Positions 7,497 to 28,509 are shown, counted from the stretch's first letter. The stretch is DNA of 35,739 nucleotides from an uncultured Pelagibacteraceae bacterium (GCA_902589505.1 CACITE010000002.1:1-35739), one strand, 5' to 3'. Notes: generated by a model not told the origin, from the sequence alone. Program-made: numbers and translations.

Positions 7497-8504
7497 ATGA
7501 GTACTATTTCTATATCATTAGATGAAATTTATGATCTAGCAAAGAAAACATTACTTTTTAATGGGTGTGACGAGGAGAACGCAAGTATTTTGTCAGACAC
7601 TCTAATGAGAGCTGAAAGAGATGGCTCTCACTCTCATGGTCTGTTTAGATTACCTGCTTATGTTTCTGCATTAAAAAGTAAAAAAGTAAATGGGAAAGCA
7701 AGACCTGAAGTAAAAAAAATTTCATCAAGTATTATTAAAGTGTTAGGCAACAATGCATTTGCACCAATGGTATTAAAAGTTGGTCTACCAGAATTAATTA
7801 AATTAGCAAAAGAAACAGGTGTTGCAGTTTTAGCTATTACTAATTCACATCACATGGCGGCGATGTGGCCAGAAACAGAAGCTATAGCCGAAGAAGGTTT
7901 AGTTGGTTTTGCTTGTACATCTTATATGCCGCTAGTTGCTCCTGCTGGAGCTAAGAAAGCTTTATTTGGAACTAACCCTATTTCATTTGCATGGCCACGT
8001 CCTGGAAAAAATCCTGTGGTTTATGATATGGCTACATCAGCAATGGCTATGGGCGATGTTATGGTTGCAGCAAGAGATGGAAAAAAAGTTCCTTTAGGAA
8101 CAGGTTTGGATAAAGATGGAAAAGAAACAACAGATCCAAAAAAAATTGAAAAAGGAAGCGGTGGAGTTTTACTTCCCTTCGCGGGCTATAAAGGTTCTGC
8201 AATAGCTATGATGGTAGAATTACTTGCAGGCGCACTTGTAGGAGAAACTTTTAGTTATGAAACTGCCGCCAAGGATAATAAAGATGGCGGCCCACCTAGC
8301 GGAGGAGAGTTTGTTTTAGCTATTTCACCAGAAAAAATTACAGGTTCTAATTGGGAAAAACATTCAGAAGAATTTTTTGAAAAAATGAAATCAATGGATG
8401 GTGTACGTTTACCAGGTGAAAGAAGACATAAAAATCGACTAGATAAAGGCACAAGAAAAATAAACAAGGAATTAATAGAAAAAATTAAAAAATTAGCTAA
8501 ATGA
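7497..8504 (+). CDS. Ldh-family NAD(P)H-dependent oxidoreductase, DpkA-like imino-acid reductase
   Basis: Member of the malate/L-lactate dehydrogenase family (COG2055), 335 residues. The ERDGSHSHGLFRLPAYV block (about residues 41-57) carries the catalytic His; NSHHMAAMWPETEAIAEEG, the APAGAKKALFGTNPISFAWP block and the GYKGSAIAMMVELLAGAL segment are family signatures. Well-studied members include malate, lactate and ureidoglycolate dehydrogenases and DpkA, which reduces delta1-piperideine-2-carboxylate and delta1-pyrroline-2-carboxylate. The adjacent ProC-like gene and upstream DadA-like oxidoreductase favour an imino-acid reductase, but this is from context. It is followed by 63 bases with a weak short hairpin and no clear promoter. 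Confidence 0.82.
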   Translation: MSTISISLDEIYDLAKKTLLFNGCDEENASILSDTLMRAERDGSHSHGLFRLPAYVSALKSKKVNGKARPEVKKISSSIIKVLGNNAFAPMVLKVGLPELIKLAKETGVAVLAITNSHHMAAMWPETEAIAEEGLVGFACTSYMPLVAPAGAKKALFGTNPISFAWPRPGKNPVVYDMATSAMAMGDVMVAARDGKKVPLGTGLDKDGKETTDPKKIEKGSGGVLLPFAGYKGSAIAMMVELLAGALVGETFSYETAAKDNKDGGPPSGGEFVLAISPEKITGSNWEKHSEEFFEKMKSMDGVRLPGERRHKNRLDKGTRKINKELIEKIKKLAK

Positions 8505-16433: not shown

Positions 16434-17540
16434 ATGAAGACTATAGTAAATAGCTGGAATGAATGGGATCCTTTAAAACATGTAATTTTAGGTCGAGCGG
16501 ACGGTTGTTGTATACCTCCTTCAGAACCAGCGGTTGATGGAAAAGTTCCAGAGGACTCAGATATGAGGGGTCAATTTGGTGTACGACCTAAAGAAACTAT
16601 TGATAAAGCAAACGAACTACTAGAAAATTTCGCAAACCTTCTAAAAAAAAGAGGAATAAGAGTTGATCGACCAACGCCACTTAATTTTAATCAACCTATA
16701 TCAACTCCTGACTGGAAAACAAAAAGTATGTTTGGAACCATGCCTGCTAGAGACATAATTTTGACAGTTGGAAAAGAGATGCTCGAAGCTACAATGAGTT
16801 ATAGGTGTCGATTTTTTGAGTATCTAAATTATAGACCTCTGTTAAAAAAATATTATGAAGAGGATCCTGGAATGCGACATGAAGCGGCACCAAAACCAAG
16901 ATTAACAGATAAGAGTTTTCACTTGGACTATTTGTCTGACAAAATTGGAGTTCAAAAAAGATTAGAATGGACTGCAAAAAAATATTTTGTGACAACTGAA
17001 GAAGAGCCTCTATTTGACGCTGCAGATGTTATGAGATTTGGCAAAGATTTAATGGTTCAACACGGCTTTACTACAAATTTGAAAGGCATTGACTGGTTAA
17101 GAAGGCATTTTCCAAATCATAGAGTACATCCTTTGAATTTTCCAGGCGATCCATATCCTATTCATATCGATGCTTCTTTTACTGCGCTTAAACCAGGTTT
17201 AATAATAAATAATCCAAATAGACGTTTGCCTGATGAACAAAGAAAAATTTTTGAAAAAAATGACTGGAAAATAGTTGATGCAGCTCAACCCGCTCATAAC
17301 AAACCACCACCTTTATGTTTTTCTTCAGTTTGGTTATCTATGAATATTTTAGTTCTTGATCCAAAAACTGTGTGTGTGGAGAAGAGCGAAGTTTACCAAG
17401 CCGAACAAATAAGTAAATTAGGCATGGAAGTTGTTGAAGTTGATTTTCGAGACGTTTACCCTTTTGGAGGAGGACTGCATTGTAGTACAACTGATGTGTA
17501 CAGAGAGGGAAATTGTGAAGATTATTTTCCTAAACAATAA
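16434..17540 (+). CDS. Glycine amidinotransferase-like enzyme (AGAT/StrB1 family)
   Basis: 368-residue amidinotransferase of the pentein fold. Members move the amidino group of arginine to an amine acceptor (glycine in AGAT), giving ornithine and a guanidino compound. The catalytic triad is conserved with the spacing of human AGAT: D195 in FDAADVMRFGKD, H244 in YPIHIDASF and C350 in GGGLHCSTTDV (D-H spacing 49 as in D254/H303). The ALKPGLIINNP and SSVWLSMNILVLD blocks also match the family. The acceptor cannot be deduced. Its stop overlaps the next gene start by one base, linking it to an EutA-like gene, a DoeA-like hydrolase and a Pot transporter. A ureohydrolase lies 11 kb downstream on the same strand. 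Confidence 0.88.
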   Translation: MKTIVNSWNEWDPLKHVILGRADGCCIPPSEPAVDGKVPEDSDMRGQFGVRPKETIDKANELLENFANLLKKRGIRVDRPTPLNFNQPISTPDWKTKSMFGTMPARDIILTVGKEMLEATMSYRCRFFEYLNYRPLLKKYYEEDPGMRHEAAPKPRLTDKSFHLDYLSDKIGVQKRLEWTAKKYFVTTEEEPLFDAADVMRFGKDLMVQHGFTTNLKGIDWLRRHFPNHRVHPLNFPGDPYPIHIDASFTALKPGLIINNPNRRLPDEQRKIFEKNDWKIVDAAQPAHNKPPPLCFSSVWLSMNILVLDPKTVCVEKSEVYQAEQISKLGMEVVEVDFRDVYPFGGGLHCSTTDVYREGNCEDYFPKQ

Positions 17541-18289
17541 TGTCAATTAAATCAAATTATATTAAGCCAAAATTTAAAAAAAAAATAAATCCAAAAGTGG
17601 GTTTGCTTGCACTTTCGACTGATCTTACAATAGAAAGTGATTTTCAATCTATTTGTAAAAAACTTCCTTTAGATTTATTTGTAAATCGTATTCACAATGA
17701 AAATCCTTTAACTAAAGAAAATCTTGTAAAAATGTACGATCAAATAGAGCCTGTTACTGAAAAAATTTTACCAGGACAAAAAATAAATACAATAGCTTAC
17801 GGTTGTACATCAGGAACAATAGCTATAGGAGAAGATAAAGTTAAAGAAAAAGTTCAATTAGCCAAACCTAGTTGTTATGTTACAACACCCATCACTTCTG
17901 CCATCAAAGCTTTTAAAGAAATGAATGTAAAAAAAATTTCTTTGTTTACTCCGTACCCAGAATCTGTAAACAAAACTATTTTGGAGTATTTTGAAAAAAA
18001 AAATATAAATATTATATCATTTAGTACTTTCAATATAGATTTGGACGAAGATATAGCTAGCGTAGATCCAAAATATTTATTAGAGACTTTAATTAAATTG
18101 GACACAAGTAATGCTGATGCACTTTTTATATCTTGCACAGCTCTTCCCGCTCTAGAAATTCTTGATGAAGTTGAAAAAAAAATAGGTAAAATTGTTTTGT
18201 CTAGCAATCAAACTTTAATTTGGGATACCTTAAGATCTGTTGGATACAAATCATCAGTTAAAGGATATGGAAAACTTTTAAGGAATTAA
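17540..18289 (+). CDS. Asp/Glu racemase-superfamily protein, EutA-like (maleate isomerase/AMDase type)
   Basis: 249 residues of the aspartate/glutamate racemase fold, closest in architecture to the maleate cis-trans isomerase, arylmalonate decarboxylase and EutA group. The two active-site Cys are both present: one in IAYGCTSGTIAIG (about residue 90) and one in ALFISCTALPALE (about residue 195). EutA is encoded in many ectoine-utilisation clusters, where its role is not settled. Here it starts in the last base of the amidinotransferase stop codon and ends 1 base before the DoeA-like gene, so the three are surely co-translated. The pairing with a DoeA-like hydrolase is the main reason for naming EutA over maleate isomerase. 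Confidence 0.78.
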   Translation: MSIKSNYIKPKFKKKINPKVGLLALSTDLTIESDFQSICKKLPLDLFVNRIHNENPLTKENLVKMYDQIEPVTEKILPGQKINTIAYGCTSGTIAIGEDKVKEKVQLAKPSCYVTTPITSAIKAFKEMNVKKISLFTPYPESVNKTILEYFEKKNINIISFSTFNIDLDEDIASVDPKYLLETLIKLDTSNADALFISCTALPALEILDEVEKKIGKIVLSSNQTLIWDTLRSVGYKSSVKGYGKLLRN

Positions 18290-18290
18290 A

Positions 18291-19460
18291 ATGCTTTTTG
18301 AAAAAAAAGAATATAAAGAACGATTAAAAAAAGTTAAAGCTTCGATGCAAAAACAAGGAATTGATTTATTAGTTTCACATGATCCCGCAAACATGAATTA
18401 TTTAACCGGTTATGACGCCTGGTCTTTTTATTATGCTCAATGTGTTTTAGTTCATGTAAGCGAAGATGAACCTATTTGTTTTCTTAGAGCGCAGGACGCT
18501 GGTGGAGGTTATATAAAAGCTTATGTTCAACATAAAAATATTATTTCTTATGAAGAAAAATATATTCACACTTGGCCTTTGCATCCATACCAATATCTAG
18601 TTGAAATAATTAAAGAAAGAAAATGGGACAGATCTAATATTGGACTCGAAATGGATAGTCACTACTTTACCGCATATTGTTGTGAAGTAATAAAAAAAGG
18701 TCTACCGAATGCAAAATTCAAAGATGCCGAACGTTTAGTAAATTGGGTTAGAGTTGTCAAATCGGATGCTGAGATCAAATTAATGAAATCAGCTGCAAGA
18801 ATTACAGAAAAAGGAATGAAAAAAGCATTCGAAAGTATTAATCCTGGGGTTAGACAATGTGATGCTGTTGGCGAAATTCAAAAGTCGCTATTTAATGGCA
18901 CAACAGAATTTGGAGGCGATTATGCAAGCATAGCAACTTTGCTGCCTACAGGAAAAGGAACTTCAGCTTCCCACTTAACAGCTACCGAAGATAAGTTTGT
19001 TAAAGGTGAGGCTACTATTATTGAAATATCAGGTGTTCACAAAAGATATCATTGTCCTATGGCAAGAACGGTACTTTTGGGAGAAAAAAATCAAAAAAAA
19101 ATAGATACGATGAAAGCAACTAACGAGGCATTGGATGCAGGAATTTCAGCTACCAAACCAGGAAATACTGCTGATGATGTAGCTCAAAAATTTTGGAGAG
19201 TTTTGGACAAGTATGGAATAAAAAAAGAATCAAGGACAGGATATTCAATTGGTATTGGTTACCCTCCTGATTGGGGCGAACAGACTTTAAATATATCAAA
19301 AGGAGATAAAACTGTTTTACAACCTAACGTTACTTTTCACATGATAGCAGTAATGCAGTTTGGTGATTGGGGAGTTGAAGCAAGCGAGTCAGTAAGGGTG
19401 ACCGAAAAAGACTCAGAATTATTCTGCAATTTATCAAGAGATTTGCATATTAAAGAATAA
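18291..19460 (+). CDS. M24-family hydrolase, ectoine hydrolase (DoeA/EutD)-like
   Basis: 389-residue pita-bread-fold protein: a creatinase-type N-terminal domain (about 1-160) and a catalytic domain (about 165-389). Stretches such as MNYLTGYDAWSFYY, RLVNWVRVVKS, KRYHCPMARTV, SRTGYSIGIGYPPDWGE and WGVEASESVRVTE resemble what I recall of DoeA/EutD ectoine hydrolases, which open the ectoine ring to N-acetyl-diaminobutyrate. The usual metal ligands of M24 peptidases are not kept: the two Asp positions are E245 and P256, and no His occupies the GHGIG position, so it is probably not a metallopeptidase, as known for creatinase. No DoeB/EutE deacetylase is in the window. Creatinase and DddP-type lyases are less likely alternatives. 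Confidence 0.78.
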   Translation: MLFEKKEYKERLKKVKASMQKQGIDLLVSHDPANMNYLTGYDAWSFYYAQCVLVHVSEDEPICFLRAQDAGGGYIKAYVQHKNIISYEEKYIHTWPLHPYQYLVEIIKERKWDRSNIGLEMDSHYFTAYCCEVIKKGLPNAKFKDAERLVNWVRVVKSDAEIKLMKSAARITEKGMKKAFESINPGVRQCDAVGEIQKSLFNGTTEFGGDYASIATLLPTGKGTSASHLTATEDKFVKGEATIIEISGVHKRYHCPMARTVLLGEKNQKKIDTMKATNEALDAGISATKPGNTADDVAQKFWRVLDKYGIKKESRTGYSIGIGYPPDWGEQTLNISKGDKTVLQPNVTFHMIAVMQFGDWGVEASESVRVTEKDSELFCNLSRDLHIKE

Positions 19461-19503
19461 AAAACTTGATAAAAATTTTAAAAGTTGCTTAAATTCACGT
19501 CTT

Positions 19504-20595
19504 ATGGGGAGCACAGATACTTTCGTAAAATTTGAAAAAGTGGATAAAAGCTACGATGGAGAAACATTAGTAGTAAAAGATCTCAATGTAGATATTCCGC
19601 AAGGAGAATTTCTTACAATGTTAGGACCTTCTGGTTCTGGAAAAACTACAACATTGATGATGTTGGCTGGATTTGAAACGCCTACTGGCGGAGAAATATA
19701 TTTAGATGGTGAAGCAATAAATAAAATTCCACCATACAAACGTGGTATTGGAATGGTTTTTCAAAACTATGCTCTATTTCCACATATGACGGTAAATGAA
19801 AATCTTGCATTTCCTCTTGAAGTAAGAAAATTAATTAAAACAGATATTCAAGAAAAAGTAAAAAAAGCTTTAGACATGGTAGAACTAGGAGCTTTTGGAA
19901 ATCGTATGCCTTTGCAATTATCTGGAGGCCAACAACAACGTGTTGCTTTAGCAAGAGCTTTAGTGTTTGAACCTAGATTAGTATTAATGGATGAACCTTT
20001 AGGAGCGCTTGATAAAAAACTTCGCGAACAAATGCAATATGAAATAAAACATATTCATGAAAATTTAGGAATAACAGTTGTATATGTAACGCACGATCAA
20101 AGCGAAGCGCTAACAATGTCGAACCGTATCGCGGTATTTAACGATGGAAAAATTCAACAGATATCATCGCCAGATATTCTATATGAAAAACCAGAAAATG
20201 CATTTGTTGCAAATTTTATTGGAGAAAATAATCAACTAAAAGGAAAAGTAAAATCTATTAGTGGAAAAAATTGTATAGTTACTACAGACAAAGGCGACGA
20301 AATTACATCTTTAAAAATAAACGTTAATTCTGTAGGTGACTCTTCAACTGTTTCTTTACGTCCAGAAAGAGTTGAGATTAATTCAGCGGATAGTAATTTT
20401 GAAAATACTTTTAACGCTAAAGTTAAAGAATTAATTTATTTAGGAGATCATATTCGAACAAGGGTTGAAGTTTGTGGAAATGATCAGTTCATTGTAAAAG
20501 TTCCTAATTCCTATAAAGGTGCAAACTTAAAAGAAGGAGCTTCTGTTAAGTTGTCTTGGAAAGCCAGTGATTCAAGGGCATTAGATCTAGGTTAA
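19504..20595 (+). CDS. potA: Spermidine/putrescine-type ABC transporter ATPase PotA
   Basis: 363-residue ATPase of the polyamine/opine importer family. Walker A GPSGSGKTT (about residues 38-46), Q-loop VFQNYALFPHMTV, signature LSGGQQQRVALARAL, Walker B LVLMDEPLGALD and the H-loop in YVTHDQSEALTMS are all present. A C-terminal TOBE domain follows from about residue 240 to the end. It lies 43 bases after the DoeA-like gene and before potD, potB and potC, forming a full importer. Substrates of this family include polyamines, but also related cationic or zwitterionic compounds, so the ligand may be what the upstream enzymes process. Confidence 0.9.
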   Translation: MGSTDTFVKFEKVDKSYDGETLVVKDLNVDIPQGEFLTMLGPSGSGKTTTLMMLAGFETPTGGEIYLDGEAINKIPPYKRGIGMVFQNYALFPHMTVNENLAFPLEVRKLIKTDIQEKVKKALDMVELGAFGNRMPLQLSGGQQQRVALARALVFEPRLVLMDEPLGALDKKLREQMQYEIKHIHENLGITVVYVTHDQSEALTMSNRIAVFNDGKIQQISSPDILYEKPENAFVANFIGENNQLKGKVKSISGKNCIVTTDKGDEITSLKINVNSVGDSSTVSLRPERVEINSADSNFENTFNAKVKELIYLGDHIRTRVEVCGNDQFIVKVPNSYKGANLKEGASVKLSWKASDSRALDLG

Positions 20596-20611
20596 TTTCT
20601 TATTTTTAAGG

Positions 20612-20640
20612 TTTACAGCACTTTCTCAATTTGTTTTAAT
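20612..20640 (+). promoter_or_regulatory. Predicted sigma70-type promoter for potD
   Basis: TTTACA at 20612-20617 (5 of 6 to TTGACA), a 17-base spacer, then TTTAAT at 20635-20640 (5 of 6 to TATAAT), 43 bases before the potD ATG. It lies just past the potA stop in an 88-base gap, the largest inside the pot cluster, which fits extra expression of the binding protein. Confidence 0.6.
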
Positions 20641-20647
20641 TCGCAAC

Positions 20648-20659
20648 TTATACGTATAA
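20648..20659. repeat. 12-bp perfect palindrome in the potD leader
   Basis: TTATACGTATAA is self-complementary and sits about 8 bases after the predicted -10 of the potD promoter, at the expected start of transcription. Such a position would suit a repressor operator. It is short and AT-rich, so chance occurrence is possible. Confidence 0.4.
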
Positions 20660-20683
20660 ATAACCAATAAAGAGGGAAAAAAT

Positions 20684-21745
20684 ATGTTTAAATTAATCAA
20701 AGCTACTTTCCTTGGATTGATCGCGATGGCATTTACTGCATCATCATATGCAGACATCACGTTCGTGTCTTGGGGCGGAGCTTATACGAACAGTCAACAA
20801 AAGGCTTACGTTGATACTTGGAGCAAAGGTTCAGGAGTTACTGTTGAGAACTATAACGGTGGTCTTGGAGAAATCAAAGCTCAAGTAGAAGCTGGAAACG
20901 TAACTTGGGATGTAGTAGACGTACTTCCTGACCAAGCGATTACTGGTTGCGACGAAGGTTTATTTGCAAAAGTAGACCAAAGTTCATTTTTGGACGATTT
21001 AGTTGTAGCGCCAGTATCTGATTGTGTTGTTCCACAAATTTTCTGGGCATACACAGCGTTTTACAGCAAAAGTGCTTTTCCAGGCAAAAAACCAAAAAAC
21101 ATTAAAGACTTCTTTAATGTTAAAAAGTTTCCTGGAAAAAGAGGAATACATACATGGGCAAACGCTTTAATCGAAATGGCACTAGTTGCTGACGGCGTTA
21201 AAGCAAGCAAAGTATACGAAGTAATGAGCACTCCTGAAGGAATAGACAGAGCATTTGCAAAACTAGATACAATTAAAGATCACGTTGTATTCTGGTCAGC
21301 TGGTTCTAAACCACTTGAATTAGTATCAAGCGGTGAAGTTGTTATGTCATTAGCATACAACGGTAGAATTGGTGCTGCTATCCTTTCTGAAGGTAAAGAC
21401 TTCGAATACATTTGGGACGCTACAGTTCTTGAACAAGAATATCTTGTAGCAATTAAAGGTGGAAACGAGAAAGAAGCTCTTGAGTTTATGGCTCATGCTT
21501 CTACTGCTCAAGCTTTAGCTGATCAAGCTAAATACATTCCATACGGCCCTATGAGAAAATCTAGTATCGATATCATCAAAAAAGGTGAACCTTGGTTCAT
21601 AAAAGAAGGTGGAAATATCGATATATTACCTCACATGCCAACTCATCCGAAAGTTCTTAAGAGAGCTGTTATAGCTGACCCAGTGTGGTGGGCTGATAAT
21701 GGCGCTGAAGTAAGTGAAAGATTCGGTGCTTGGAAGGGTAACTAA
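20684..21745 (+). CDS. potD: Periplasmic polyamine-type substrate-binding protein PotD
   Basis: 353-residue periplasmic binding protein of the PotD/PotF class (COG0687). Residues 1-23 form a signal peptide ending in a SYA-type site, and the mature protein opens with DITFVSWGGAYTNSQQKAY, a family hallmark. WDVVDVLPDQAITGCDEGLFAKVD and the IFWAYTAFYSK and VMSLAYNGRIGAAI blocks line the ligand cleft. Two Cys (in ITGCDE and VSDCVV) may form a disulfide. AGAGGG precedes the ATG. It has its own predicted promoter and a strong terminator after it, so it should be made in excess over the permeases. Codon choice looks more G+C-rich and regular than in its neighbours, consistent with high expression. 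Confidence 0.9.
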   Translation: MFKLIKATFLGLIAMAFTASSYADITFVSWGGAYTNSQQKAYVDTWSKGSGVTVENYNGGLGEIKAQVEAGNVTWDVVDVLPDQAITGCDEGLFAKVDQSSFLDDLVVAPVSDCVVPQIFWAYTAFYSKSAFPGKKPKNIKDFFNVKKFPGKRGIHTWANALIEMALVADGVKASKVYEVMSTPEGIDRAFAKLDTIKDHVVFWSAGSKPLELVSSGEVVMSLAYNGRIGAAILSEGKDFEYIWDATVLEQEYLVAIKGGNEKEALEFMAHASTAQALADQAKYIPYGPMRKSSIDIIKKGEPWFIKEGGNIDILPHMPTHPKVLKRAVIADPVWWADNGAEVSERFGAWKGN

Positions 21746-21762
21746 TAATTCGTAATGTTTAA

Positions 21763-21794
21763 AAAAAAGGCGAGACTTAGGTCTCGCCTTTTTT
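21763..21794 (+). terminator. Intrinsic terminator between potD and potB
   Basis: A 14-bp stem (21763-21776 paired with 21781-21794) with GGCGAGAC/GTCTCGCC core, a TTAG tetraloop and a run of T. It lies 18 bases after the potD stop and 16 bases before the potB ATG. Probably a partial terminator that lowers permease expression relative to the binding protein. Flanking A and T runs could also allow function on the opposite strand, but no gene ends there. Confidence 0.92.
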
Positions 21795-21810
21795 GTTTAG
21801 AGGTAAAATT

Positions 21811-23064
21811 ATGAATGAAACAACTACAGGATCCATTTTAACAACTGAAGGCGTTCCATTAAAAGTTAGTCTTCAAAAAGCTGAAAAAAGAAATAAAATA
21901 AGAGCAATTCTTTTAGTTGCTCCACTTTTAGTTTTTATACTTGTTACATTCTTAATTCCCATTGGCGATATGTTGCTTCGAAGTGTTGATGATAGTTATA
22001 TCAATACTGTTTTTCCGAAAACTTTTAAAGAGTATAAAAAATGGGATAGACAAGATTTGCCATCCGAAGAACTTTATAAAACAATGTTCTTTGAAGTTAA
22101 AGATAGCGAAGGTTATGCTATAGGTAAAGCTAGCACTCGAATGAATTATGCAAAATCAGGTTGGAAAAGTTTATTAAAAAAATCAAAACGTAAATTTAAA
22201 AAAATTGAAGAAGGTCCATACAAAGAACAAATGATAGCCATTGATAAAAAATGGGCCGACATGGAATATTGGAAGGCATTAGGAGTGATGGTTGATGCTA
22301 CGACCGCAGGATATTATTTAAATGCAGTTGATTTAAAATATAATGTAGACAAAGAGATTGTTCGGCAAAAGGAAAATAGAAGAATTTATAATCACACATG
22401 GATTAAAACATTCAAAGTGAGTGTTTTAGTTATGATTTTTTGTTTGATGTTGGGTTATCCAATTTCTTACTTGTTATCAACGCTACCTTTAAAATATAGC
22501 AATCTTTTGATGATATGCGTATTGTTGCCTTTTTGGACATCGTTACTTGTTCGAACAGTCGCATGGATGGTTATGCTACAGCAAAAAGGTGTATTTAATA
22601 ATTTATTAGTAATGGCTAATGTTATTGCTGACGAAAACCGTTTTAAACTTATGTACAATGAAACGGCAACTATAATTGTTATGACACAAATATTATTACC
22701 TTTTATGGTTTTGCCTTTGTATAGTGTAATGAAAACAATTTCACCAAACTACATGCGTGCAGCTTTAAATCTTGGAGCATCTCCATTACACGCCTTTTGG
22801 AAAGTCTATATGCCAAATTCAGTGCCAGGAATTAGTGCAGGATGCATGCTCGTATTTATACTTGCGATTGGTTACTACATTACACCTGAATTGGTTGGAG
22901 GTAAGGATGGGCAAATGGTAGGAAACTGGATTGCTTACCATTTAAAAACAACATTAAATTGGGGACTAAGTGCAGCTCTTGGAGCTATTCTTTTGGGAGT
23001 GCTGACAGTTTTATACTGGGTTTATAATAAATTAGTTGGAATAGAAAATATTAAATTAGGATAA
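21811..23064 (+). CDS. potB: Spermidine/putrescine-type ABC transporter permease PotB with a large loop insertion
   Basis: Inner-membrane permease of 417 residues from the ATG at 21811, which follows AGAGGT at 21798-21803. An in-frame TTG at 21793 lies in the terminator stem and is not the start. Usual PotB proteins have about 280-300 residues; here the first membrane segment (about 31-51) is followed by a soluble, Lys-rich region of about 140 residues (60-200) before the second segment VSVLVMIFCLMLGYPISYLL. The EAA loop is conserved as ALNLGASPLHAFWKVYMPNSVPGI. By topology the inserted region would be periplasmic, possibly facing the binding protein. It ends 2 bases before potC. Confidence 0.88.
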   Translation: MNETTTGSILTTEGVPLKVSLQKAEKRNKIRAILLVAPLLVFILVTFLIPIGDMLLRSVDDSYINTVFPKTFKEYKKWDRQDLPSEELYKTMFFEVKDSEGYAIGKASTRMNYAKSGWKSLLKKSKRKFKKIEEGPYKEQMIAIDKKWADMEYWKALGVMVDATTAGYYLNAVDLKYNVDKEIVRQKENRRIYNHTWIKTFKVSVLVMIFCLMLGYPISYLLSTLPLKYSNLLMICVLLPFWTSLLVRTVAWMVMLQQKGVFNNLLVMANVIADENRFKLMYNETATIIVMTQILLPFMVLPLYSVMKTISPNYMRAALNLGASPLHAFWKVYMPNSVPGISAGCMLVFILAIGYYITPELVGGKDGQMVGNWIAYHLKTTLNWGLSAALGAILLGVLTVLYWVYNKLVGIENIKLG

Positions 23065-23066
23065 TT

Positions 23067-23951
23067 ATGGCTTTACCATCATATGCAACAACAGGACAAA
23101 AAATAGGTTGGTATTCTTTTTTAACCTATTGTGGTCTAGTTTTTTTCTTTTTAATCGCACCTATTTTTGTCATTCTTCCTTTATCATTTAGCTCTTCACC
23201 ATTTTTTGAATTTACTAGGGAATTTATGAACTTTGAACCAGAAGCATGGTCTCTTAGATGGTATAGACAAATGGTTGGTATTGCTAGCGTGGGAGACACA
23301 ACGGTTGTTTCTAATAAATGGATGTTAGGAACTAGAAATAGTTTTATCGTTGGAATTTCTGCTACATTTTTGGCAACGGCACTAGGTACCGTCGCAGCTT
23401 TGGGTCTGAGTAGACCACATATGCCATTCAAAGGTACTATTATGGCAATACTAATTTCTCCTATGATCGTTCCATTAATTATTACATCTGCCGGTATGTT
23501 TTTCTTTTATTCAAAAATTGGACTAACTCATACTTATTTAGGATTAATTCTTGCACACACTGCTCTAGGTACACCATTTGTTGTTATAACTGTTACAGCT
23601 ACTTTAACAGGCTTTGATACCAATCTAATTAGAGCTTCGCAAAGTTTAGGAGCTGATACAGTGCGAACTTTTTTTAAAGTCATAATGCCTTTAATTCTCC
23701 CAGGCGTCATATCTGGAGCATTATTTGCTTTTATTACCTCTTTTGACGAAGTTGTTGTAGTTATGTTTATCGGAAGCGTTGAACAGATAACCATACCTAA
23801 ACAAATGTGGGCAGGTTTGCGTCAAGAAACGAGTCCTGTAATTTTATGCATGGCTACGTGTTTAGTTGCATTATCAATTGCACTTTTAACAACAGTTGAA
23901 TTATTAAGAAGAAGATCAGAAAGATTACGTGGAATTAAGTTGCGTAATTAA
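23067..23951 (+). CDS. potC: Spermidine/putrescine-type ABC transporter permease PotC
   Basis: 294-residue second permease with six predicted membrane segments. The EAA loop is visible as ASQSLGADTVRTFFKVIMPLILPGVISGALFAF, followed by ITSFDEVVVVMFIG, both typical of PotC/PotI. The loop after the first segment is modest in size, unlike PotB. It begins 2 bases after potB and completes the importer. The next gene, a secreted protein of unknown function, starts 35 bases later. Confidence 0.92.
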   Translation: MALPSYATTGQKIGWYSFLTYCGLVFFFLIAPIFVILPLSFSSSPFFEFTREFMNFEPEAWSLRWYRQMVGIASVGDTTVVSNKWMLGTRNSFIVGISATFLATALGTVAALGLSRPHMPFKGTIMAILISPMIVPLIITSAGMFFFYSKIGLTHTYLGLILAHTALGTPFVVITVTATLTGFDTNLIRASQSLGADTVRTFFKVIMPLILPGVISGALFAFITSFDEVVVVMFIGSVEQITIPKQMWAGLRQETSPVILCMATCLVALSIALLTTVELLRRRSERLRGIKLRN

Positions 23952-25247: not shown

Positions 25248-26228
25248 ATGAATGATAAAAATTTTAAAATAGACAATTTACAGTACTGCAACTGGTCTAA
25301 AGAAATATTTGAAATAAATAACGAAGCAAAGCTAGACGCGATTCACGTAACCATTGCATATCATGAAGATTTTAGTGAAGTAGAAAAAAATATAAGTGTT
25401 TGGAACACACATTTCAAAAATTTTAAAGATTTAATTTTTCATGGAAAAACATTTAAAGATATAGAAAAAGCTCATAAAGAAAAAAAGACTGCGGTTTTTT
25501 TTGGTTTTCAGAATTGTTCACCTATTGGAGACAATATTGGACTAGTAGAAGAAATTCATAAATTGGGAATAATTTTTATGCAACTGACTTACAATAACCA
25601 ATCTTTGTTGGCCACTGGTTGCTATGAAAAAAATGACAGTGGAGTAACTAGAATGGGAAAAGAGGTTATAAAAGAAATGAATAGATTGGGTGTTGTGGTA
25701 GATATGTCCCATTCAGCAGAAAAATCAACATTTGATGCAATTGAAATATCGTCTAAACCTATAGCAATTACACATGCTAACCCCGCATTCTGGTTTGCTG
25801 CAAAAAGAAATAAATCAAATGAACTTTTAAAAGCATTAGCAGATTCTGGAGGAATGATTGGTCTTTCTTTGTATCCTCATCATTTAAAAGATAAATCAAA
25901 TTGTACTCTCAAAAGCTTTTGTGAAATGGCTGCAAAAACTGCTGAACTTATAGGAGTTAAACATATTGGAATAGGGTCAGATCTTTGTATTGGACATCCA
26001 GATTCTGTTGTTGATTGGATGAGAAATGGTAAATGGACCAAGTCAAAAGATTACGGAGAAGGAAGCGCTTCAGATGCAAGTTTTCCTAAACAACCAGATT
26101 GGTTTAAAGATGCAAGAGGATTTAAAAACCTAGAATTAGGTCTAAAAAAAGTTGGGTTCAAAGACACCGAGGTAAATGACATACTGGGAAATAATTGGTA
26201 TAATTTTTACCGAGGGATAAGGTCTTGA
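25248..26228 (+). CDS. Peptidase M19 (renal dipeptidase)-like protein with altered metal site
   Basis: 326 residues of the M19 membrane-dipeptidase amidohydrolase fold. Recognisable blocks are LGIIFMQLTYNN, VVVDMSHSAE (H155), PIAITHANP (H176) and HIGIGSDLC (D245), matching the later metal and catalytic residues. However, the N-terminal HxD pair of classic members is replaced by the NLQYCNW segment, and the bridging Glu is Q88 in FFGFQNC. The two-zinc site of ordinary dipeptidases therefore cannot form as usual. It may bind one metal or have a different substrate. No signal peptide, so cytoplasmic. Its stop overlaps the TTG start of the next gene (TTGA), tying it to the unknown 556-residue protein. 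Confidence 0.82.
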   Translation: MNDKNFKIDNLQYCNWSKEIFEINNEAKLDAIHVTIAYHEDFSEVEKNISVWNTHFKNFKDLIFHGKTFKDIEKAHKEKKTAVFFGFQNCSPIGDNIGLVEEIHKLGIIFMQLTYNNQSLLATGCYEKNDSGVTRMGKEVIKEMNRLGVVVDMSHSAEKSTFDAIEISSKPIAITHANPAFWFAAKRNKSNELLKALADSGGMIGLSLYPHHLKDKSNCTLKSFCEMAAKTAELIGVKHIGIGSDLCIGHPDSVVDWMRNGKWTKSKDYGEGSASDASFPKQPDWFKDARGFKNLELGLKKVGFKDTEVNDILGNNWYNFYRGIRS

Positions 26229-27895
26229 GCAAACTAAATATAAAACTTAGAGATCCAAATGAAGTCATGAAACTTTCTAGACTAGGATCGTTTCATCAAT
26301 CTAAACTTTCATTTTTGAGAAGCTTTATTAGAGAATTTAAGGATTGGGAATATAAAAGAAATATATTTGAACTTGATAAAGACGGCTATGGAGTAGCGGT
26401 ATACTCTTTTGAAAAAAAGAAAAGAAATTATTCTTTGATATGTTTTGCTCAACATATTAATCCAAACGAACGTTCAGATAGAGTAATAGCAACAAAATGG
26501 GATACCGCTTTTGTTTTACATGACGGACTTCCAGCAAGGAGTGATATAAACCGACTTAAAAAAAATGTTCCAAAACAAGAAATTGGCAGAATGTCATACA
26601 AAGAACTTACACTGTCAAGAGCCAACAAATCAGTAAGAGTTTTTGATCATGTTGTTAATTCATTAAGTGAGGGCAATCAACCGGATAGAAATTTATTAAA
26701 CAAAGTAGGTTACTTATATAGAACCACAGCTGTTTACGGATCAGGAAAATTTGGTCTAGCTGATCGTTTTAGAATTAAAAATAGAAAAGAAGTTTATGGA
26801 CCTTTCAGATTGGAAATGATGTTGGTGTATCTAGTCCGTCAATTTACTTTTGATCAAGTCAATCATATAGCCAAAAATAAAAATCCTAATAAGGCAGTTC
26901 AACTTGATGAGAATATTGCAAGAAATTTAGGAATAGGAAACTCAACAGGATTAGGAATGGCTCCTTTTATTGTTAATCACCCAACACTTTTACATAAATG
27001 GATTTATAATAGAGAGAAGGCATTAAAAGAGATTAGATCTATTGAGGTTGTGAATAATGATGAGTTTAATTTTTTTAAAGATTGTCTAACTAAATCTAAA
27101 AAAATTATTGATACATGGCTTACAGATAGCGAATATCAGAACAAAAAAATTAATTCTTTAAAATCAGATTTAGTTAAATTTGATGTGTTTTTAGAAAAGA
27201 ACTGTTCAATTAAAACCAAATATCTTTGGAATGAAATATATCTGTGGGTTGAAAAGAACCTTAAAGAAGAATGTATTGAATATATTGTTTCTATGATGAT
27301 GGAACCTCATGACAAAATTATAGACCCATTAATTAATAATATGAGTTCAGAGGAAGAACAGTATTTTAGCATACCAGGTCATAGAAAAATTTCTGATCTA
27401 AAAACAATTTTAGAGAAAAAGTATCAATCAATTATCAAAATTAATTTTAAGGAAAAAAATAGTATTGCCAATTTTTGGTTTATTTCAAAAAATAAAGAAG
27501 AACCTAGAGTTGCTAATAGATATGAAGAACAAGGTGCAGAATTAGAACAACCCTTGGCAATTGCAAGAGATATCAAGCAGCTTTACGAAAGAATATTAAA
27601 AGCAAATCAATCAGAAACCATTGCAGATTTTTTATTAAATAACGATGATTTGAGACATGTTGTTAGAAGAGCTTTTATAGCAGATAAATTTCCTTATTCA
27701 GAAATTCAAGATAATACAATTGGAGCTTCACTTATGCCTATAGATATGCTCCGTTTAAAACTTTCTTTTTTTGGAGCGGTTAAATTTGATCCAAGATCGG
27801 ACAAATGGCTTAGAATAAATATGTATCAAGGAGCTCCATTATCTCATGAATTGAAAAATTCAGATGATACATGGATATACAACTCTCTTAATTAA
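26225..27895 (+). CDS. Uncharacterised 556-residue protein (partner of DUF3726 protein)
   Basis: I do not recognise a characterised family. The start is a TTG at 26225 overlapping the dipeptidase stop, with ATAAGG just upstream. There is no signal peptide and no membrane segment; the protein is soluble, basic and Lys/Arg-rich. Notable conserved-looking blocks are KRNYSLICFAQHINPNERSDRVIATKWDTAFVL (about 68-100), VGYLYRTTAVYGSGKFGLADRFRIKNRKEVYGPFRLEMMLVYLVRQFTFDQVNHIA (about 161-216), NLGIGNSTGLGMAPFIVNHP (about 235-254) and a C-terminal ADKFPYSEIQDNTIGASLMPIDMLRLKLSFFGAVKFDPRSDKW. The middle is a Lys-rich helical region. It ends 2 bases before the DUF3726 gene; the two look like one functional unit beside amide/guanidino-acting hydrolases. 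Confidence 0.75.
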   Translation: MSKLNIKLRDPNEVMKLSRLGSFHQSKLSFLRSFIREFKDWEYKRNIFELDKDGYGVAVYSFEKKKRNYSLICFAQHINPNERSDRVIATKWDTAFVLHDGLPARSDINRLKKNVPKQEIGRMSYKELTLSRANKSVRVFDHVVNSLSEGNQPDRNLLNKVGYLYRTTAVYGSGKFGLADRFRIKNRKEVYGPFRLEMMLVYLVRQFTFDQVNHIAKNKNPNKAVQLDENIARNLGIGNSTGLGMAPFIVNHPTLLHKWIYNREKALKEIRSIEVVNNDEFNFFKDCLTKSKKIIDTWLTDSEYQNKKINSLKSDLVKFDVFLEKNCSIKTKYLWNEIYLWVEKNLKEECIEYIVSMMMEPHDKIIDPLINNMSSEEEQYFSIPGHRKISDLKTILEKKYQSIIKINFKEKNSIANFWFISKNKEEPRVANRYEEQGAELEQPLAIARDIKQLYERILKANQSETIADFLLNNDDLRHVVRRAFIADKFPYSEIQDNTIGASLMPIDMLRLKLSFFGAVKFDPRSDKWLRINMYQGAPLSHELKNSDDTWIYNSLN

Positions 27896-27897
27896 TT

Positions 27898-28509
27898 ATG
27901 ATAACTTTTAGCGAAATTGAAACAACAACAAAAAGAGCTTCCAAAGCCGCAGGTTTTTCTTGGGGAGTTGCAGAAGAAATAGGGAAATCAATAAGGAGTT
28001 TAGAGCTATTTGGTCTGCCAGGCATTATAAACCTCAATAAATATTTAAAGAAAATTAAAATAAAACATCCAAAAAAAATAGCAAAAATAGAAAAGAAAAA
28101 TAAAACTAGAGATAAAGAATTATGTCCTATTTATTCGGGAGTAGCCTTTTTAGATCGTTGTTTAGAACTAGAAAAATTAAAATCTCTTAAATTTTATAAA
28201 GTAAGCTATCCTTTGCTTATGCTTCCTTTTATTAGCAGGGCATCGGAGATGATAAGCAAAAAAATATTGGTTCAATTTGACAAATCAAGTTTCTTGTTGA
28301 ATTTTGATAAATCTATTTTTTCAAAAGATATTGAAAAGCAAGCTCCATCAATAGCTAAAGTAGTAAATATAGAATTTTTAGAAAATAAAAACTCCTTTTC
28401 AGAGCAAGATTGGAAGGAATTATATAAACTTTCAGAAGAGACTTTTGTGGAAGAGTCTGATAGCCTAAAAAAATCAGCAGCAGGAGCGGGATTAACAGAT
28501 AATGACTAA
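27898..28509 (+). CDS. DUF3726-like protein, function unknown
   Basis: 203 residues. The N-terminus, MITFSEIETTTKRASKAAGFSWGVAEEIGKSIRSLELFGLPG, fits my recollection of the DUF3726 family, whose function is not known. The rest is a Lys-rich region with one CPIYSG motif (Cys near residue 75) and a short hydrophobic stretch near residues 100-112 that is probably buried rather than membrane-spanning. It directly follows the 556-residue unknown protein (2-base gap) and is followed by a tiny hydrophobic ORF overlapping its end by 8 bases and then the ureohydrolase. The family name is from memory and should be treated as tentative. Confidence 0.65.
   Translation: MITFSEIETTTKRASKAAGFSWGVAEEIGKSIRSLELFGLPGIINLNKYLKKIKIKHPKKIAKIEKKNKTRDKELCPIYSGVAFLDRCLELEKLKSLKFYKVSYPLLMLPFISRASEMISKKILVQFDKSSFLLNFDKSIFSKDIEKQAPSIAKVVNIEFLENKNSFSEQDWKELYKLSEETFVEESDSLKKSAAGAGLTDND

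Follow-up and report, generated by a model that had tools for sequence, protein, structure and literature searches.

A three-gene unit of SAR11 and Rhodobacteraceae linked to N-methylglutamate genes: a probable core of homarine catabolism

The system closest to the locus described here is a homarine operon, homABCDER, which Ferrer-Gonzalez et al. reportedly described in 2026 in Nat Microbiol; it is said to encode five enzymes and a regulator, to yield N-methylglutamate and glutamate, and to occur in Rhodobacterales, SAR11, and SAR116. No paper naming DUF3726 or homABCDER was found in the literature searched. According to PMC13390433, which cites Ferrer-Gonzalez 2026 (doi 10.1038/s41564-026-02313-7), N-methylglutamate dehydrogenase (Mgd) takes part in homarine catabolism. 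R. pomeroyi draws homarine down within hours (PMC12817926). The DNA analysed here, called the window, is a stretch of 35,739 nucleotides from a SAR11 genome (G000; 925 kb in 25 contigs) whose relatives in this study are Pelagibacteraceae records. It carries a unit of three genes that most likely belongs to the SAR11 form of the homarine pathway, the probable identity with the hom genes being judged from the reported gene count, the taxa, and the linkage to Mgd.

The three-gene unit and its occurrence

The features discussed below are located in the window as follows.

25248..26228, + strand: M19-fold protein, 326 aa, usual first gene of the unit (PF01244, 1.5e-71)
26225..27895, + strand: P556, 556 aa, unnamed family, predicted large subunit or enzyme of the unit; TTG start
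26930..26968, + strand: P556 motif GIGNSTGLGMAPF, residues 236-248, candidate active-site loop (alignment and pLDDT)
27898..28509, + strand: DUF3726 protein, 203 aa, predicted partner of P556 (PF12525, 9.3e-20)
28477..28506, + strand: C-terminal tail AAGAGLTDND of the DUF3726 protein, candidate docking or active-site tail (conservation and pLDDT)
7497..8504, + strand: Ldh_2-family oxidoreductase, 335 aa, tentative remote member of the pathway (PF02615, 2.6e-96)

The first-pass annotation of this DNA had described P556 and the DUF3726 gene as a tightly spaced two-gene unit, and a check of the open reading frames re-found this arrangement: the TGA of the M19-like gene and the TTG of P556 share 4 nt (TTGA), and 2 nt lie between the TAA of P556, which ends at 27895, and the ATG of the DUF3726 gene at 27898. 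Judged from comparison of homologues, the P556 frame is a real gene because 79 further SAR11 loci have homologues (67-93% identity) that are open over almost their full length, and because it remains open across the Alphaproteobacteria. The TTG is a plausible start, backed by the conserved residue R9, which precedes the earliest internal ATG (M15), and P556 homologues of other SAR11 likewise begin at the stop of the M19 gene.

P556 was detected in 57 of 387 sampled alphaproteobacterial genomes, in 38 of 60 relatives of the window genome, and in 175 of 395 Rhodobacteraceae (44% of those sampled), as well as on PLSDB plasmids of Phaeobacter, Ruegeria, Sulfitobacter, Aminobacter, Shinella and, more distantly, Sinorhizobium. 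DUF3726 was present in 46 of the 387 genomes, all 46 of which also possess P556. With the family HMM, a DUF3726-like gene was recognised at 47 of 50 loci of a mixed P556 set, including that of the window, and was missing at only three, all of a distant rhizobial type. Among 80 SAR11 loci, an M19 gene adjoins P556 in 78 and DUF3726 follows P556 in 77, the loci without one of these neighbours lying at or near contig ends, and in the mixed set M19 is present at 44 of 52 loci. From these adjacency counts it is evident that P556 and DUF3726 really form one unit, of which the M19 gene is the third member. Both couplings that had been proposed from the window, that of the pair to each other and that of the pair to the M19 gene, are thus borne out, and a check for the two genes standing apart in most genomes did not find them separated.

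Outside the SAR11 clade of the window, the general operon has the order LysR / ALDH-M19-(BCCT)-P556-DUF3726-Ldh_2. In Ruegeria TM1040, soxBDAG, an AraC-type regulator, LysR, ALDH, M19, a BCCT transporter, P556, DUF3726, and Ldh_2 follow each other, the P556/DUF3726 pair being TM1040_RS02335/02340; one further genome (G245) displays a LysR-type gene, ALDH, M19, P556, DUF3726, and Ldh_2; and in P. inhibens the row LysR, ALDH, M19, P556, DUF3726 (the last two PGA1_RS19010/19015) adjoins DMSP demethylation genes. Transporters accompanying the unit elsewhere are of the BCCT and choline-type ABC classes. In SAR11 family f2, an ALDH gene and, in part, an Ldh_2 gene are convergent to DUF3726, and in the clade of the window only M19, P556, and DUF3726 are adjacent, with no regulator, ALDH, or Ldh_2 gene beside them. 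BLAST and Pfam identify the gene downstream of DUF3726 in other genomes as Ldh_2, not as a ureohydrolase. The Ldh_2 gene of the window lies 18 kb from the unit, and its product is 58% and 50% identical to the unit-adjacent Ldh_2 proteins of G151 (L194) and G225 (L204), respectively; an Ldh_2 match was obtained in 5 of 5 P556-positive versus 0 of 2 P556-negative SAR11 genomes tested. The window ALDH was considered as the operon ALDH and rejected, as it is only about 31% identical and not orthologous, and no operon-type ALDH adjoins the unit in the window. The data support a catabolic operon; the metabolic role suggested earlier is probable, and a maturation system found no support.

Several further arrangements were observed. 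On plasmid pPGA1_262 of P. inhibens DSM 17395 (L210, 14876-20316), the unit lies beside genes for DMSP demethylase, an AMP-binding protein, dmdD, and an acyl-CoA dehydrogenase. In some Rhodobacterales P556 is present twice, the additional copy (about 40% identity to that of the window) lying in another neighbourhood (L195 and L196, from G269 and G189). A divergent P556 clade (L199-L203) is 22-28% identical, and plasmids of Sinorhizobium and Neorhizobium carry copies like it; of its 5 loci, 4 contain an M19 homologue and at least 3 contain Pot-like ABC genes, and no DUF3726 was detected in L200-L202. Members of this clade possibly carry out the same chemistry on another substrate.

Linkage to genes of the N-methylglutamate pathway

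Genes of the soxA family (TIGR01372) are present in 55 of the 57 P556-positive genomes, compared with 159 of 387 overall (about 104 of 330 P556-negative genomes). The Fisher p for this association, about 6e-22, ignores shared ancestry, and for this reason the position and the phylogeny of the soxA genes were examined. In the nearest relative of the window (L021/L246), soxB-D-A, M19, P556, and DUF3726 are consecutive, and an mgd-type alpha subunit is encoded in 50 of the 55 SAR11 loci whose upstream sequence extends over 9.5 kb or more. Linkage of mgd-type genes to the unit was also found in TM1040, P. porticola, G193, and G113. In a phylogenetic tree, all P556-adjacent soxA-like alpha subunits fall into one clade (support 100/98); the remaining SoxA copies lie outside it, as does another, GmaS-linked clade (G160 and G317). 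A member of the P556-adjacent clade is found in G269, within a GADB gene set that comes after gmaS, three mgs genes (GATase, GXGXG, and Glu_synthase domains) and a DJ-1/AraC regulator; this TmaR-type regulator is 47% identical to the P556-adjacent one in TM1040. In G084, a clade member stands in a row with mgsABC. Because this synteny in G269 and G084 resembles the arrangement of R. pomeroyi, where dmmDABC-tmaR-mgdABCD occupies SPO1579-1588 (PMC13390433), the P556-adjacent soxBDAG-like clade is assigned, by synteny, to N-methylglutamate dehydrogenase.

MgdABCD (N-methylglutamate dehydrogenase / heterotetrameric sarcosine oxidase), as assigned here by synteny, is a recurrent neighbour of the unit and belongs to a single clade. 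It is not adjacent in the window, and the mgd-type gene of the window genome is located on another contig (C16:35-3019). Some P556-negative SAR11 assemblies, which are incomplete, also contain an mgd-type gene. In genus g15 of SAR11 family f2 (L278-L281), gmaS lies directly upstream of M19-P556-DUF3726, and these genomes mostly have no mgd-type soxA copy. With mgd at most of the SAR11 loci examined and gmaS in family f2, the unit has two distinct N-methylglutamate-pathway genes as neighbours, and the gmaS link in this one family could indicate release of methylamine there in place of N-methylglutamate.

Folds and conserved segments of the three proteins

Homology and structure searches with P556 and the DUF3726 protein left the former without a match and yielded a possibly Ldh_2-like model for the latter. 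That the large protein matches no familiar characterised family had been stated in the first-pass annotation, and the searches by sequence and by fold agree: P556 had no match in Pfam, NCBIfam, or PDB, none of 44 diverse members had a credible family match in Pfam, and a profile of these 44 members produced nothing credible in PDB. A similarity of this profile to V-ATPase subunit C (E 0.007-0.03) fell on a helical, low-information stretch and was judged to be due to chance. Foldseek comparison of the P556 model with PDB and viral models gave nothing at E <= 0.001, and hhalign detected no similarity of P556 to Ldh_2 or to DUF3726. The P556 model, whose quality is limited by the use of SAR11 rows only, is only moderately confident (pLDDT 72, pTM 0.79). 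The segment GIGNSTGLGMAPF is among the most conserved in the alignment and among the least confidently modelled (pLDDT < 50 at 238-251); segments of this kind, conserved and poorly modelled, could be explained by an active site that needs a cofactor or DUF3726 for its completion, or else by a shallow alignment.

The DUF3726 protein is a member of PF12525, scoring 70.7 bits against a gathering threshold of 22.1, and the family model spans only about the first 73 residues, leaving the conserved C-terminal tail of the 203-aa protein outside. Its predicted structure (pLDDT 88) resembles a shortened Ldh_2 fold: the best 24 Foldseek matches in PDB all have the Ldh_2 fold with prob 0.95-1.00, but E values are 0.02-0.2 and TM scores 0.40-0.49, and hhalign reports a weak profile similarity of the N-terminus to Ldh_2 (prob 18%, P 0.0014). 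The Ldh_2 family (PF02615) comprises malate/L-lactate, ureidoglycolate, 2,3-diketogulonate, and delta1-piperideine-2-carboxylate reductases, with a length of about 335 aa compared with the 203 aa of the DUF3726 protein, for which no Pfam match to Ldh_2 was obtained and in which the SHG active-site motif was not recognisable. The last ten residues, AAGAGLTDND, are conserved in alignments yet disordered in the monomer model (pLDDT < 50 at 194-203), suggesting that this tail docks on a partner protein.

The first protein of the unit scores 241.7 bits with PF01244, and its nearest solved chain is 2i5g (4.3e-53). It shares with the M19 membrane dipeptidases the fold, the histidines of DMSH and THAN, and the aspartate of GSD, all three motifs being kept in the residue alignment, but their two-metal dipeptidase site is not intact: IDNLQY and FGFQN stand in for IDGHND (H-x-D) and the bridging glutamate, and the latter is replaced by glutamine in all aligned M19 rows shown. 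The ligand positions are those of the M19 metal site. The same loss of the N-terminal H-x-D and of the bridging glutamate is seen in 2i5g. As three metal ligands are lost, the alignment indicates that the protein is not an ordinary dipeptidase, and the earlier remark that this M19 protein is odd was right.

Candidate substrates and reactions

P556 and DUF3726 are probably the core of a catabolic module, together with the M19-like protein, an ALDH, and an Ldh_2 oxidoreductase, that turns an N-methylated compound, with homarine (N-methylpicolinate) as the leading candidate, into N-methylglutamate. Homarine is taken as the likeliest substrate on the strength of agreement with the reported homarine operon in gene count, taxa, and link to Mgd. 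The five enzymes ALDH, M19, P556, DUF3726, and Ldh_2 together with LysR, as arranged in TM1040 and G245, would fit the gene count reported for homABCDER, and Rhodobacterales and SAR11 are reportedly common to both. Both would also feed Mgd, whose part in homarine catabolism is reported in PMC13390433. The likeness is drawn for the operon as a whole, with no hom letter given to any single gene, and the clade of the window differs from homABCDER in its missing adjacent regulator, ALDH, and Ldh_2.

We infer the substrate, the order of steps, and the chemistry as follows. For homarine to become N-methylglutamate, its ring would have to be opened, one carbon removed, an aldehyde oxidised, and an unsaturated bond reduced. 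P556, with the tail of its small Ldh_2-like partner DUF3726 docked on it, would attack and open the pyridinium ring; ALDH would oxidise the exposed aldehyde, Ldh_2 would reduce a C=N or C=C bond, and the M19-fold protein, devoid of the usual two-metal site, may serve a C-N hydrolysis or binding step. MgdABCD would then demethylate N-methylglutamate to glutamate and a one-carbon unit. In the simplest carbon map, the carboxylate and C2-C5 would become the glutamate skeleton and C6 would be lost as formate. Since the operon contains no flavin monooxygenase or Rieske oxygenase, ring opening would fall to P556, DUF3726, and the M19 protein. It is possible, and here put forward tentatively, that P556 and DUF3726 constitute a new two-subunit enzyme, in which the large subunit has a new fold and the active site is completed by the conserved tail of the smaller subunit, a shortened Ldh_2-like protein. 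Such an enzyme would open the N-methylpyridinium ring with neither the flavin monooxygenase nor the Rieske oxygenase that known pyridine pathways employ. The homarine system itself has already been reported and, as far as our tools show, the biochemistry of P556 and DUF3726 is undescribed. If the homarine reading is right, a family that is nameless in Pfam and NCBIfam and is carried by SAR11 and by nearly half of the sampled Rhodobacteraceae would gain a role in recycling a plankton osmolyte to glutamate, and P556 with DUF3726 would be the likely catalyst of the unexplained ring-opening step.

A smaller, still appreciable probability attaches to a module of the same class acting on another N-methylated betaine or heterocycle, e.g., trigonelline, proline betaine, or a carnitine-like compound, with an N-methyl amino acid or methylamine as product. 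The Mgd or GmaS neighbours point to N-methyl chemistry only, BCCT and choline-type ABC transporters and, in P. inhibens, the adjacent DMSP demethylation genes would suit such a substrate, and the two P556 copies of several Rhodobacterales may differ in what they act upon. Trigonelline is made less likely by its known and unrelated flavin-monooxygenase route. For homarine specifically, Mgd is the demethylase reported (PMC13390433), which argues against the other compounds. It is improbable that the unit assists GmaS-Mgs-Mgd as part of the trimethylamine/methylamine pathway proper: the position of gmaS directly upstream in family f2 and of mgd elsewhere would agree with this, but GmaS is present in only 29 of the 57 P556-positive genomes, BCCT, ALDH, and Ldh_2 would be unexpected partners, and the TMA genes of R. 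pomeroyi (tmm, tdm, dmm, gmaS-mgs, mgd, TmaR) include no such unit (PMC13390433).

In contrast to the homarine reading, a guanidino or polyamine pathway shared with the neighbouring ureohydrolase and ALDH, in line with the coupling to the ureohydrolase noted in the first-pass annotation, is very improbable and strongly disfavoured by the neighbourhood counts, for although both genes accompany the unit in the window (the ureohydrolase at a gap of about 47 nt) and in its closest relatives, and a Pot-like transporter lies upstream, a ureohydrolase homologue occurs in 4 of 80 SAR11 loci, closest relatives only, and in the mixed set at the locus of the window alone, the window ALDH occurs in 5 of 80, and ordinary SAR11 polyamine use (PMC8437039) accounts for the agmatinase, ALDH, and Pot genes. 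M19 is the usual third partner, and the ureohydrolase lies outside the unit. Upstream in the window, at 16434-23951, amidinotransferase-like, arylmalonate decarboxylase-family, M24 creatinase-like, and Pot-like ABC transporter genes stand in a row. As G193 likewise has M24 and Pot genes flanking P556 (L179, L254), this Pot-like transporter may serve either the pathway of the unit or a guanidino pathway.
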